A DNA stretch of 64,000 bases from positions 124,001 through 188,000 of the forward strand of contig JAICWP010000003.1 in NCBI GenBank assembly GCA_025934735.1. The letters are read 5' to 3'. The first letter of the stretch is position 1; every line of letters starts with the position of its first letter. The notes below the pieces were generated by a model, which saw only the letters and a program-made list of their open reading frames with translations, was not told where the DNA came from and made no database searches. A program made the position numbers and the translations under genes. This DNA is from Terriglobales bacterium (GTDB taxonomy: Bacteria; Acidobacteriota; Terriglobia; Terriglobales; Acidobacteriaceae). Positions 8,343 to 13,372 of this stretch are shown here, piece after piece.

Positions 8343-9548
8343 ATGCTGGCGCAGCAGCTGGAGTTCGCTCCTGAGCAGGATTCCGAAATCTTTGCCGCCG
8401 TGCCGTCTGCGGCGGCGGTGTTCCTGCTGCGGGCCGCCGATGCCGGCTCAGAGCCCTACGTTAGCAAGACCGCCAACCTCCGATGCCGCCTGGTGCGCCT
8501 GCTAGGCCGCACAGACGAGCGCACCCGGCGCTTGAACCTTCGCGAACGGGTAAGCAGCATCGAGTACACCCTCACCGGCTCGGATTTCGAATCCGGATTC
8601 CTGCTCTACAAAGTTCAGCGCGCAACTTTTCCTGAAACCTATTCCGCGCGCCTGCGGCTGCGTCCTGCTCCTCTGGTCAAATTGCATCTGCAAAATGAAT
8701 ACCCGCGAGCTTCCATCACCACGCGCCTGGGGCGGCTGAGCGGCGGTTCGTATTACTACGGGCCGTTCGCCTCGCGGGCTGCGGCGGAAAAATTCGTCAA
8801 CGACTCGCTGGATTTTTTCAATATGCGGCGCTGCGTTGACGACCTCCATCCCGATCCAGCTTTTCCCGGCTGCATCTACTCGGAGATGAAAATGTGCCTG
8901 GCGCCCTGTTTCAAGGGCTGCACGGATGAGCAATATGCGTCCGAGGTGGCGCGGGTACAAAGTTATTTCGAGACGCGGGGCCAGTCGCTTGCGCGGGAAC
9001 TGGCTACCGAGCGCGACCAGGCCTCCGCCAGCCTGGAATTTGAGAACGCCGCGGCGGCGCACGCGCACCTGGAAAAGCTAACGCCCGTGCTCAGCCAACT
9101 ACCGGAAGTCGTGCACCGCCTGGACCGGCTGGCCGGGCTCATCATCCAGCGCTCGCCAGCGCAAAATGCGGTGGCGCTGTTTCCCGTGCAGGCGGGTGCC
9201 ATTACCGGGCCGCTGACTTTCGCCGTCCAACCCACAGCCGAGCAGGCCGCGAAGTCGCAATCCATGGAGTCGCGTGTTCAGGAGGCGCTGGCCCCCTTCG
9301 CTCCGCATTGTGACCTTTCCACGGTAGAACGCATGGAGCACCTGGCCATCCTCAAGCGCTGGTACTACCGCAGCGGTCGCGCGGGAGAAATCTTTTTTGC
9401 CGATGAAAAGGGTGTGCTGCCGATGCGCCGGGTAGTGCGCGGCATTGGCCGCGTGTTTCACGGAGAGCGTCCGGACGCGGGCCCGCCCGCCGCGGGAGTG
9501 GTTTACGAAGTTCTGCAGAGGGAGAATCATCATGAAGAAAAAAAATGA
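8343..9548 (+). CDS. UvrC-like protein lacking the RNase H endonuclease and HhH domains
   Basis: The 401-aa product aligns with the first two thirds of excinuclease subunit UvrC. Residues 20-100 correspond to the GIY-YIG domain, but the first motif is VFLLRA rather than GVY, and the second is YVSKTANLR instead of YVGKAKNLR. Next comes the UvrC middle region (YYYGPFAS) with cysteines C164, C177, C185, C189 and C193, at spacings like the Fe-S ligands of UvrC. A UVR coiled-coil motif follows (about 222-247). The last 150 residues match neither the RNase H-like nuclease nor HhH. Nuclease activity is therefore doubtful; a repair or regulatory role is inferred. Confidence 0.75.
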   Translation: MLAQQLEFAPEQDSEIFAAVPSAAAVFLLRAADAGSEPYVSKTANLRCRLVRLLGRTDERTRRLNLRERVSSIEYTLTGSDFESGFLLYKVQRATFPETYSARLRLRPAPLVKLHLQNEYPRASITTRLGRLSGGSYYYGPFASRAAAEKFVNDSLDFFNMRRCVDDLHPDPAFPGCIYSEMKMCLAPCFKGCTDEQYASEVARVQSYFETRGQSLARELATERDQASASLEFENAAAAHAHLEKLTPVLSQLPEVVHRLDRLAGLIIQRSPAQNAVALFPVQAGAITGPLTFAVQPTAEQAAKSQSMESRVQEALAPFAPHCDLSTVERMEHLAILKRWYYRSGRAGEIFFADEKGVLPMRRVVRGIGRVFHGERPDAGPPAAGVVYEVLQRENHHEEKK

Positions 9549-10095: not shown

Positions 10096-11526
10096 TTATT
10101 TTCCGCCGGTAAGCGCCTTCAGGAGCAGGTAATAGAACTGCACCCCGTTGTAGTAGGACTGCACGCCCAGACGTTCGTCCCTACCGTGAGCGCGCACATC
10201 ATCCATATCAATAGCCGTTCCGGAAATGCCGTAGGTGGGCAGGCCGGCGGCGTTGGTGTAAATCCCGTCTGAGGCCCCAGTAGACATGGTGGGAATCACT
10301 GGAGCTCCCGGCCACATCTGCGCTGCCACCTTATCCAGAGTCTGCATGACGTCGGGGCGCAGCTGCACCGGCGAATACCCCAGCTTCTCGGGAGCGCGAT
10401 CCGTCACCATGCCGTCATTGGCGACGTAGCGCACCTCGACTTTGGGATCAGCAAAAATCTTGACCAGCTGTTGCCGCACTTCCTCGCGCGAGTGCCCAGG
10501 CAGGATCCGGCAGTTCACGTTGGCAGTAGCGGTCTGGGGCAGCGCGTTGTTGGCGTGGCCCGCTTCCAGGCGCGTGGCCACGCAAGTGGTCCGCATGATG
10601 GCGTTGAATATCGTATCTTCGGATAAGCGGGCGATGGCGCCGCGGTCAGAGGGCGTTTTGAGGACGGCTTTCATGTCGGCCGCACGCTGGCCGTGTTCAA
10701 TCGTCGCCATGCGTTGGAAGTAGCCGCGGGTCACTGCATTGAGCTCGAAGGGGAACTTGTATTTTTCCAGGCGGGAGAGGGCGTCGGCAACGTGGTAGAT
10801 GGCGTTGTCGGGCACGGGCAGCGAGCTGTGGCCTCCGGGATTCGTCACCTTGAGCTGGTAGTCTCCGTAGAGCTTCTCGCTGCCATCCATGGAAACGAAC
10901 AGGGGCTTGCCGTTCACCGTGTTCACGCCGCCGCCATCGGAATTGAGCACGTACTCAGCATCAATCAGGTCGCGGTGGTTCTTGATCAGCCAGTCCACGC
11001 CATTGGCATTGCCGCCTTCCTCATCGGAGGTGAGGGCGAGAATGAGGTCGCGGTCGGGTTTATAGCCTTCGCGCTTGAGTCGGATGAAATCCGCCACCCA
11101 GACAGCATCGTCGCTCTTCATGTCCTGGGTGCCGCGGCCGTAGAAATAGCCGTCTTTCTCCACAAACTTGAAAGGATCGGTGGTCCAATCCGACCGGCGG
11201 GCTTCGACAACGTCAAGGTGGCCGATGAGCAGGATGGGCTTGTGCGCGCCGGTGCCGCGATAGCGCGCCACCATGTTGCCGTGACGTGAGTCGGGGCCGA
11301 GGACCGCCACATCGGTTGCCGGAAAGCCGGCATCGCGCAGGCGCTTGGCCATGGCCTCGGCGGCGGCGGTCATGCTGCCTACCGACTCGGTCGTGTTGGT
11401 GTCAATCAGCTGCTGGAAAATATCGCGCGCCAGCTGCTTGTCCGCATTGTCCAGCTGCGCCTGTAAGGAAGAAGTGGCAAGAGTGACGATCAGGAAGAAT
11501 GAAAACCAGGAGCCGAGCCTGCGCAT
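10096..11526 (-). CDS. Exported M20-family metallopeptidase
   Basis: Zinc aminopeptidase/carboxypeptidase of the M20/M28-like superfamily, 476 aa. A signal peptide (MRRLGSWFSFFLIVTLATSSLQAQ) precedes the metal motifs LLIGHLDVV, GRGTQDMKSDD (bridging Asp) and LTSDEEGG (catalytic Glu plus ligand). The dimerisation insert and the C-terminal metal-binding His region (TMSTGASDG) follow, so it looks active. The start at 11526 is supported by GGAGGG 4-6 nt upstream; the frame continues to 11577 but overlaps the next gene. It probably acts on peptides in the periplasm. Confidence 0.9.
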   Translation of the reverse strand: MRRLGSWFSFFLIVTLATSSLQAQLDNADKQLARDIFQQLIDTNTTESVGSMTAAAEAMAKRLRDAGFPATDVAVLGPDSRHGNMVARYRGTGAHKPILLIGHLDVVEARRSDWTTDPFKFVEKDGYFYGRGTQDMKSDDAVWVADFIRLKREGYKPDRDLILALTSDEEGGNANGVDWLIKNHRDLIDAEYVLNSDGGGVNTVNGKPLFVSMDGSEKLYGDYQLKVTNPGGHSSLPVPDNAIYHVADALSRLEKYKFPFELNAVTRGYFQRMATIEHGQRAADMKAVLKTPSDRGAIARLSEDTIFNAIMRTTCVATRLEAGHANNALPQTATANVNCRILPGHSREEVRQQLVKIFADPKVEVRYVANDGMVTDRAPEKLGYSPVQLRPDVMQTLDKVAAQMWPGAPVIPTMSTGASDGIYTNAAGLPTYGISGTAIDMDDVRAHGRDERLGVQSYYNGVQFYYLLLKALTGGK

Positions 11527-11573
11527 GAACCCTCCGAGGAATGTGAGCACGGAAGAGGCATTGTACACGGGCT

Positions 11574-13109
11574 TCATGCAGCGAAAGAACCGGGGCTCAA
11601 GTTCTGGGCACGCTTGCGGAAGACCACTCGCAGCTCCTCCCGCCAGTGTTCGTCAACGGCGGCCAGAGTCCAGTCAATTTCGGGTGAGAGAAAACGCAGG
11701 AGTGTGTCCGTGGCTGGATGAATGTGGAAGGCGGGCGCCACCAGGACGAGCAAAGGCGAGCCGGGCGCCAACTTCATGCCGGGAAAATAGCCGAAACGGG
11801 TGAACTCGCCGCGGGCATGATGCCATTCCACTCGCGCCCAGTAGTCCAGGCCCTGGAGCGGAAGGTGAATGTCTTCGTCAGCTTTGAGCTCGACCACTGC
11901 CATCCGGCTATCGCGTGTGGCAGCCAGCACGTCAATCATCGCTCGGTCGGCGGCAGAGAATGCCGGCACCTGGGAATACACGGGCACGTTCACAAGGCGG
12001 TCATCCAGACTGCTGATGTTTTGGACGGCCAGCGACTCCAGCCACCGTTCCGGATGCATGCGCCAGCAGGGGTGAGCGCGCGGCCCTGCCGAACGACGCA
12101 CTTCGGCCAGCTGCTTAACAACGCCTTCAAATTCGGGGGCGTTCCGGTTGGTCAGGGTACTCTCTGCCGCACCTGTGCCGAACACGATTTCCTGGGAATT
12201 GCGGAAGCCTTCAGCCGCGACGCGGGCGCGGGCAAACTCCAGGCCGCGCAGTCGGAAAGCAATCTCTGCTGGGGATAGAACCGCCGCATCCGCTTCCGGG
12301 CAAAGAGCCCTGATGTGGTCTATAGAGGCAGCGAAGCGCTGCCGGGCCGCGGTTTCGTCGCAGCATTGCACCAGGCGGGTGGCCAGGTTGCCGCGATCGG
12401 CGGTATCCAGCTGGAGCAGTTCTTCGCCACGCTCATCAAATTCATAAAGCTGCCATTTGGCCGCGCCGCGGTCCAGATGGGCCATGCGCTCGCGCACCAC
12501 CGCTGAGCGGCCCGGCGGAACCAGCAAGTTCAGGCCTTCCACCTGCAAACCGCTAAGCGATTCGCGGCAGGCACTGAGCCATAGAATCCCGAAGGTCAGG
12601 GCGGCATCAACGGACGATTGTGTTTCTTCCGCATTCACACCCAGGAAGGAAAATGCAGAACGTCCCCGGCGCAGCACGCCACGGGCGTAAACCGGCCCAA
12701 AGGAGTGTTCCAGATCCACGGCCGAAGTCATCTGGCCAAGGGTGAATTCAGGAAAGTGGCGGGCCAGGGCACGACGCAAGCGCTGCTGGTAACCCATGCG
12801 AGATGCCTCCCTGGCTGATGGAGTGCGGCGGTCGCGATCGCGGCAGATTTCCAGCTTGGAGGGACGGGACTGACCAAAGCGCAAGACGGCCAGCCGCAGT
12901 ACGCCGCCTTTCTGCTCCAGGCTCACCACGCGCCGGACCGTGTTGCGCTCGTCCGACCACAGGTGCAGAACGCACTTGCCGTGCTCTGCGGAGATGCTGT
13001 AGTGAGAGCGCGCCAGCGCAAAGCAGACCGCACCTTCTTCCATTACGACGGCGTCGCGCGCCTCGGCAAGATACTGCTGCAGCGTGCGCGCGAGGGAGGC
13101 AGCTTCCAC
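11574..13109 (-). CDS. Uncharacterised 511-aa protein with NucS-like PD-(D/E)XK signature
   Basis: I do not recognise a named family for the whole protein. Near the C terminus there is a good PD-(D/E)XK nuclease pattern: helix residue E358 (ERWLESL), D393 in MIDVLAATRD, E407-x-K409 in AVVELKAD, and Q419/Y423 in LQGLDYW. The spacing and the RxIDVLA...VVELK...QxLDYW order resemble the catalytic domain of NucS/EndoMS and DUF91 proteins. The N-terminal 340 residues are Arg- and Ala-rich without a visible motif. The GTG start has CACAAT (with TG one base upstream) exactly 6 nt before it, so the mRNA may be leaderless. The gene diverges from tldD. Confidence 0.7.
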   Translation of the reverse strand: MEAASLARTLQQYLAEARDAVVMEEGAVCFALARSHYSISAEHGKCVLHLWSDERNTVRRVVSLEQKGGVLRLAVLRFGQSRPSKLEICRDRDRRTPSAREASRMGYQQRLRRALARHFPEFTLGQMTSAVDLEHSFGPVYARGVLRRGRSAFSFLGVNAEETQSSVDAALTFGILWLSACRESLSGLQVEGLNLLVPPGRSAVVRERMAHLDRGAAKWQLYEFDERGEELLQLDTADRGNLATRLVQCCDETAARQRFAASIDHIRALCPEADAAVLSPAEIAFRLRGLEFARARVAAEGFRNSQEIVFGTGAAESTLTNRNAPEFEGVVKQLAEVRRSAGPRAHPCWRMHPERWLESLAVQNISSLDDRLVNVPVYSQVPAFSAADRAMIDVLAATRDSRMAVVELKADEDIHLPLQGLDYWARVEWHHARGEFTRFGYFPGMKLAPGSPLLVLVAPAFHIHPATDTLLRFLSPEIDWTLAAVDEHWREELRVVFRKRAQNLSPGSFAA

Positions 13110-13223
13110 AAGCTAATTGTGTCACCGTGGAAGGCCAGAATAGCCACAGAGACACGGAGGCACCGAGAAAGAAAGACCAAAATGGGATTGGGTATTGCGG
13201 CGGAAGCTCGGCGATTTCAGCGC

Positions 13224-13239
13224 CACGGCTGAAGTCGTG
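13224..13239. repeat. Small palindrome upstream of tldD
   Basis: CACGGC-TGAA-GTCGTG with G-U tolerance, in the 263-nt spacer between tldD and the divergent 511-aa gene. It belongs to the same GGCTGAAG/C-centred palindrome type as 7252-7267. The rest of that spacer shows no gene. Confidence 0.4.
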
Positions 13240-13372
13240 CCCTTCCGAAATCCGGCATGGCTTGGTATTCACGGTCAATGTTGAGTGCTGGCTGCTGACG
13301 GCTTCCAACAAACCTCTGTGTGATAATGAAATGGGCGAGGCGTGTGCTTCTTCTCTGCCCCTGAAGCATCCA

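Follow-up and report, generated by a model that had tools for sequence, protein, structure and literature searches.

The gene, its neighbours and its inheritance

Within the window, a 64,000-nucleotide stretch of contig JAICWP010000003.1 from a Terriglobales bacterium, an open reading frame (ORF) at 13109..11574 on the minus strand begins with GTG, adjoins tldD and encodes a protein of 511 amino acids. A preliminary description of this ORF had listed residues E358, D393, E407, K409, Q419 and Y423, all of which are present as stated. The ORF is a genuine gene, chromosomal and conserved within Acidobacteriota. Its features are as follows.

11574..13109, minus strand: whole ORF, 511 amino acids; NucS-like nuclease by profile and model, with a predicted degenerate N-terminal half
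12825..13109, minus strand: residues 1-95; predicted helix and seven beta strands (DSSP of the model), aligned with the N-terminal domain of EndoMS
12402..12821, minus strand: residues 97-236; predicted PD-(D/E)XK fold without the catalytic residues (VIA-align: PaqCI, XisH and NucS at Z 7.8-9.1)
12090..12362, minus strand: residues 250-340; mostly helical linker in a low-confidence part of the model, with G289 and R338 each conserved in 97 of 98 sequences
11601..12056, minus strand: residues 352-503; active-type NucS-like PD-(D/E)XK domain with E354, D393, E407, K409, Q419 and Y423
13116..13121, minus strand: CACAAT, a -10-like box of a possible leaderless promoter, 6 nt before the GTG

A single run over genome contigs with one query sequence, which detects close relatives only, found relatives at 32 loci, all titled Acidobacteriota or subgroups thereof; the later genome searches covered Acidobacteriota. 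Alignment A1, built from the window protein and 26 of these 32 loci (the other six, L023, L024, L028, L029, L030 and L033, are broken or cut), provided the profile for a search of 396 genomes of the phylum, 116 of which gave a match. The positives listed comprise 44 genomes of the window's taxonomic family, its own included, and 3 more of its class; the negatives listed (20 of 280) fall, without exception, outside that class. Because the listed negatives all lie outside the class and the rows are apparently ordered by kinship, we infer near-universal occurrence of the gene within that class. The window's genome carries a single copy. In a tree of 63 rows (23 of the 58 from the window's family and all 40 others), each of the three taxonomic families tested forms one clade with an ultrafast bootstrap of 100, and from these family-wise clades, rather than from comparison with a species tree, inheritance of the gene looks vertical.

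At 24 of the 31 nearer loci with a called nuclease ORF, a gene of TldD/TldE type is found on the opposite strand no more than six genes upstream, and a DinB-like gene is next downstream, again on the other strand, at 15 of those 31; these counts rest on crude gene calls, and some of the contigs are cut. In the window, the longest ORF of tldD starts at 12803 on the plus strand. This start is probably too early, because the first TldD domain begins only at residue 227 of that ORF, so that tldD and the nuclease gene probably do not overlap in reality. An M20 peptidase gene (10096-11577, minus strand) begins at the nuclease stop codon with an ATGA overlap, an arrangement confined to the window, with this neighbour at none of the 32 genome-contig loci. 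Further away, at 8343-9548 on the plus strand, lies a conserved neighbour of 401 amino acids that occurs at 26 of the 32 nearer loci and belongs to no Pfam family; by eye, it resembles a UvrC/Cho-type GIY-YIG protein. Among distant loci (L064-L067 and L069-L071), the nuclease gene is followed at six loci by a gene of the truB cluster and then one of the prkA cluster, and genes of the DUF444 and spoVR-like clusters come after it at six and five loci, the truB-type and prkA-type labels coming from a scan of one member of each gene cluster.

The position of the GTG holds ATG or GTG in all 26 aligned nearer relatives. A leaderless start had been proposed from the CACAAT box. Of the 27 upstream regions of the window and these 26 relatives, 20 have ANAAT 6-8 nt ahead of the start (300 shuffles gave a mean of 0.67 and no more than 3), and 21 have RTCACWGAY, in 19 of them at -39 to -41 (shuffle mean 0.11, maximum 2); both patterns were picked on the same 27 sequences. 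None of four Shine-Dalgarno-like 5-mers is found in any of the 27. In a second set, 22 loci of the window's taxonomic family whose starts were set crudely (7 further loci that have no start codon near the expected place were omitted), ANAAT occurs at one locus and RTCACWGAY at three, so that a general leaderless footprint across the family fails. The window's box is real, and its pattern recurs in most of the nearer relatives but hardly in the second set; the leaderless reading is supported, at the level of sequence pattern, for the nearer relatives and unproven beyond them. A regulon marked by the RTCACWGAC block with the ANAAT box was also considered and rejected, as an exact search of 8 genomes gave 3 matches, none at the nuclease gene and no sensible target. 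The window's own upstream region (13110-13150, minus strand) keeps the -10-like box and lacks the RTCACWGAY block. Two short stretches upstream of the gene, 13135-13176 and 13213-13254, are small dispersed repeats, for which 19 further matches, each 27-39 bases long, are listed elsewhere in the genome; one of them occupies the place of the block found in the nearer relatives.

The C-terminal nuclease domain

We examined conservation in a family alignment of 98 rows, comprising the window protein and 97 of the 101 other loci, from which the fragments L024, L029, L030 and L033 were removed and in which the broken genes L023 and L028 are represented by their longer piece. Residues E354, Q380, D393, E407, K409, Q419, Y423, W424, F442, P459 and W489 are each present in all 98 rows and E358 in 96, and the E-hydrophobic-K triplet of the C-terminal domain is likewise found in all 98 sequences. 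A loose pattern of the motif, written after the motif had been seen, matches 3 of 20,000 shuffles of the window protein; for a motif recognised in sequence, conservation is the stronger test.

Profile alignment pairs E354, D393, E407, K409, Q419 and Y423 with E127, D160, E174, K176, Q187 and Y191 of NucS (numbers counted from the printed alignment range, 2vld 124-191), which we take to be the NucS catalytic residues. The NucS-like PD-(D/E)XK core that had been proposed therefore stands for D393, E407-x-K409, Q419 and Y423, but not for E358, which lies one turn off: it is E354 that aligns with NucS E127.

Sequence profile and predicted structure both back such a core and place it at residues ~350-503. 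We built a profile from 51 diverse C-terminal domains, one from the window and 50 chosen to represent the 97 loci; compared with the sequences of solved structures, it matched Card1 first (E 4.5e-4) and Pyrococcus NucS (2vld) next (E 6.8e-4), with EndoMS at only E 0.95. The best match of a full-length profile in the corresponding comparison was sarcosine oxidase at E 0.23, which we took as chance. In a few members, the Pfam MmcB-like family gave a slightly better E-value than NucS_C, all such matches being weak (best E 0.0014).

Folded alone, residues 322-511 gave a model with a mean pLDDT of 80.4. VIA-align placed EndoMS 5gke_A at the top (Z 11.7, rmsd 2.6 over 115 residues), together with NucS 2vld_A (Z 11.5, rmsd 2.0 over 107 residues, 21% identity) and EndoMS 5gkj_B (Z 10.4), and XisH below them (Z 8.6). 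Foldseek ranked Shedu SduA first (E 4.2e-4) and gave EndoMS/NucS an E-value of 8e-3 with a probability of 1.00. The two orders differ, yet both methods put PD-(D/E)XK nucleases on top in their comparisons with the predicted fold. A nuclease fold with its active site is almost certainly present in the C-terminal domain, and from it we infer that the window protein has nuclease activity.

The N-terminal half and the linker

The first 340 residues had been described as lacking any known domain, a claim that gave way once the model was compared with solved structures: the predicted fold of residues 1-228 resembles a whole EndoMS chain. The full-length model has a mean pLDDT of 72, mostly good over residues 1-236 and poor in the linker. 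In the PDB, Foldseek matches it best to EndoMS, at E 3.0e-4 with a probability of 0.99 and a TM-score of 0.26 when scaled by target length, and VIA-align superposes residues 1-228 of the model on residues 22-239 of EndoMS 5gkj_B with a Z of 9.3 over 188 residues at an rmsd of 16.2. This large rmsd suggests that each of the modelled domains may fit EndoMS singly with a different mutual orientation. The restriction enzyme PaqCI is tied with EndoMS, matching residues 101-236 alone (Z 9.1).

When the beta-hairpins are aligned by eye, the positions of the catalytic D, E and K in the N-terminal nuclease fold are occupied by Y141, F155 and G157. Over the 98 aligned sequences, column 141 holds D and column 155 holds E in no more than one sequence, column 157 never holds K, and 8 sequences have an acid-hydrophobic-K/Q triplet near this hairpin. 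The N-terminal alignment omits L076 and L095, which have a short N-terminus. The model and these substitutions suggest that the N-terminal half is a NucS-like chain with a dead nuclease fold. By sequence, it matches none of the solved structures (best E 0.064). An internal duplication visible in sequence was considered and rejected, as hhalign of the C-terminal domain profile against the N-terminal profile gave a probability of 0.2. Within the linker, residues 285-315 (12165-12257) include G289, L290, A293, F310 and G311, conserved in 84 to 97 of the 98 sequences.

Alternative functions, proposed role and relation to known nucleases

Long NucS homologues resembling this protein are already in print. 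In a report on Antarctic Dry Valley metagenomes, 'Cluster (2)' comprises 115 NucS homologues, some over 500 amino acids, which carry an N-terminal extension and align best to NucS over their last 200 residues (PMC10140301). After 18 h, one of them, DV-NucS (58.8 kDa), had cleaved duplexes with uracil or an abasic site and had degraded single strands, the authors deferring active-site mutants; a putative lysophospholipase gene lay directly upstream of all four Cluster (2) genes examined, on four contigs (PMC10140301). In one acidobacterial family of distant members, f22, a GDSL lipase gene is directly upstream on the same strand at 19 of 27 loci (L090, L091, L094, L102, L124-L126 and L128-L139), and among the 8 others, L127 is near a contig end. 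Such a lipase is directly upstream at none of the 33 other distant loci, and at neither the window locus nor the 32 nearer loci. The 27 f22 members span 430-536 amino acids, counted from the first profile-matched residue. Because of the upstream lipase, the length and the domain layout, DV-NucS probably belongs to the acidobacterial protein family, the two being compared by description. The term 'uncharacterised' in the preliminary description thus needs a qualifier: it overlooks that probable relatives have been named as long NucS proteins and one of them assayed (PMC10140301).

The degradation of single strands by DV-NucS (PMC10140301) lends something to a reading in which the window protein acts on RNA or single-stranded DNA, as Card1/Can2 do, in RNA turnover or recombination, and so do the rank of Card1 (6wxw) as the best sequence match of the C-terminal profile and the position of six distant nuclease loci just upstream of a truB-type gene. 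Although the catalytic cores of Card1 and the window protein are similar in sequence, the C-terminal model is nearer to EndoMS/NucS than to Card1, for which the structure comparison gave a Z of 7.0, and we regard this reading as unlikely. Card1 carries an N-terminal CARF sensor. A CARF fold is not among the N-terminal VIA-align matches listed, but absence from those lists is given no weight here.

A further candidate, and an improbable one, is a nuclease of phage defence or restriction that degrades invading DNA in the manner of Shedu, NucC or PDC-S11. In its favour, SduA is the first Foldseek match of the C-terminal domain, and the PADLOC profile PDC-S11 matches the core of that domain, at E-values up to 1, in every one of 27 members (9.3e-5 for the window protein, 4.4e-7 at best). 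The window's match, however, covers positions 24-98 of the 379 in the profile, so that the nuclease core is held in common while the full-profile match failed. The nuclease domain of SduA (8ps5, 8ti9) shares the PD-(D/E)XK fold with the C-terminal domain, but its VIA-align Z of 6.0-6.4 is well under that of NucS, and Pfam SduA_C matched 3 of 51 C-terminal domains (best E 0.056) and 1 of 27 f22 members (E 0.15). The distribution of the gene also argues against this reading, as it groups by taxonomic family and appears near-universal in the class; A1 had no match in viral contigs, the window protein none in plasmids and phages, and two distant members none in plasmids. Among 10 neighbour proteins scanned with PADLOC, nine gave nothing and one a weak partial match to mad8 (E 8e-4, positions 30-99 of 314), and the 20 neighbour proteins scanned with Pfam, being housekeeping-type or without a family, led us to reject a defence system here. 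With vertical-looking inheritance and this one partial match among the neighbours, the suggestion of a role in defence, made from the sequence at the outset, found no support.

NucS has been studied as a replacement for MutS/MutL, and a diverged NucS orthologue in clamp-dependent mismatch repair would be consistent with the matching catalytic residues and with NucS-like folds predicted in both halves. This possibility is nonetheless remote, given the doubled size, a score under the Pfam NucS_C cut-off, the missing clamp motif and the presence of MutS and MutL. A Pfam scan of the window protein returned no family, the cut-off of PF01939 being missed. That profile matched 13 of 51 C-terminal domains at E up to 1 (best 0.0056) and 13 of 27 f22 members (best E 0.0027); at E 0.001 it matched the family gene in none of the 30 positive genomes, 3 of which have a PF01939 match elsewhere, 2 of these above the cut-off. 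The clamp-binding motif of bacterial NucS, [E/K][L/Y][T/R]LF, is absent from the last 60 residues in all 98 sequences. In a set of 119 genomes, all 30 that carry the family gene have a MutL match and 28 of them a MutS match; both are present in the window's genome, and the two positive genomes without a MutS match are multi-contig drafts. We therefore rejected a replacement of MutS/MutL. Since NucS_C falls below its cut-off, the clamp motif is absent and MutS/MutL are present, we do not file the protein as NucS: it is not a canonical NucS, its cutting domain being NucS-like in active site and predicted fold. A structural or regulatory protein whose conserved site serves another chemistry is very improbable indeed, given that all 98 sequences retain every residue of the catalytic set.

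We therefore return to repair and consider, with moderate confidence, that the best explanation is a chromosomal, metal-dependent DNA-repair endonuclease of Acidobacteriota, and we think it reasonably likely that its role is exerted on damaged or mispaired duplex DNA. Along the chain, a NucS-like beta domain that serves to bind DNA or to pair would come first, followed by the putatively dead NucS-like nuclease fold and, behind the helical linker, the active NucS-like PD-(D/E)XK domain. The N-terminal half would probably recognise or position duplex DNA whose bases are mismatched, deaminated or abasic, leaving the C-terminal domain to cut beside the recognised site. Such a cut would feed into excision or recombination, in parallel with MutS/MutL. 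Uracil and abasic sites as substrates are extrapolated from DV-NucS, the probable distant relative, and hold by analogy with it.

More tentatively, the protein could be an asymmetric, single-chain counterpart of NucS in which reading the lesion and holding the duplex fall to the dead module and the one live domain nicks a single strand; we put this forward as a possibility on the doubtful side. If true, it would mean a lesion- or mismatch-directed nickase working beside MutS/MutL, in place of the double-strand breaks of NucS, and a second use of the NucS scaffold that is apparently near-universal in one bacterial class. That a phylum with MutS/MutL also conserves a NucS-like enzyme with an added dead domain suggests another repair task for the scaffold, perhaps on bases that are deaminated or abasic, and a possible division of reading and cutting between two modules.

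The window protein is thus probably a NucS-like repair nuclease, conserved and with its first half degenerate, whose relatives are probably already in print. Canonical NucS is a dimer that makes double-strand breaks by mismatch-specific cleavage. NucS/EndoMS (2vld, 5gke, 5gkj; PF01939) and the window protein have in common a C-terminal RecB-like PD-(D/E)XK domain with matching catalytic residues. Whereas NucS/EndoMS consists of two domains joined by a short linker, the window protein, at 511 amino acids, is twice the size, with a long linker in the model; by prediction, a degenerate nuclease fold holds the NucS position and the intact one follows behind it. The N-terminal domain of NucS is described as a half-closed beta-barrel of one helix and eight strands (PMC8228993). 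Residues 1-95 of the window protein have one predicted helix and seven predicted strands, and the whole-chain match, with the high rmsd given above, comes with no sequence match. NucS C-terminal domains in other domain architectures have been noted before (PMC5290159); a search of open-licence papers, covering listings and passages of the three cited here, found no description of a degenerate NucS half. For DV-NucS, a NucS E-value of 3.5e-6 is reported (PMC10140301), against a best of 0.0027 in the 27 f22 members, a gap that speaks against its membership of the family but is perhaps due to a different Pfam release. The Dry Valley Cluster (2) proteins and the acidobacterial family are alike in being long and NucS-like in the C-terminal ~200 residues; the probable hosts of the long Antarctic homologues would then be Acidobacteriota, and the domains seen here would account for their N-terminal extension.
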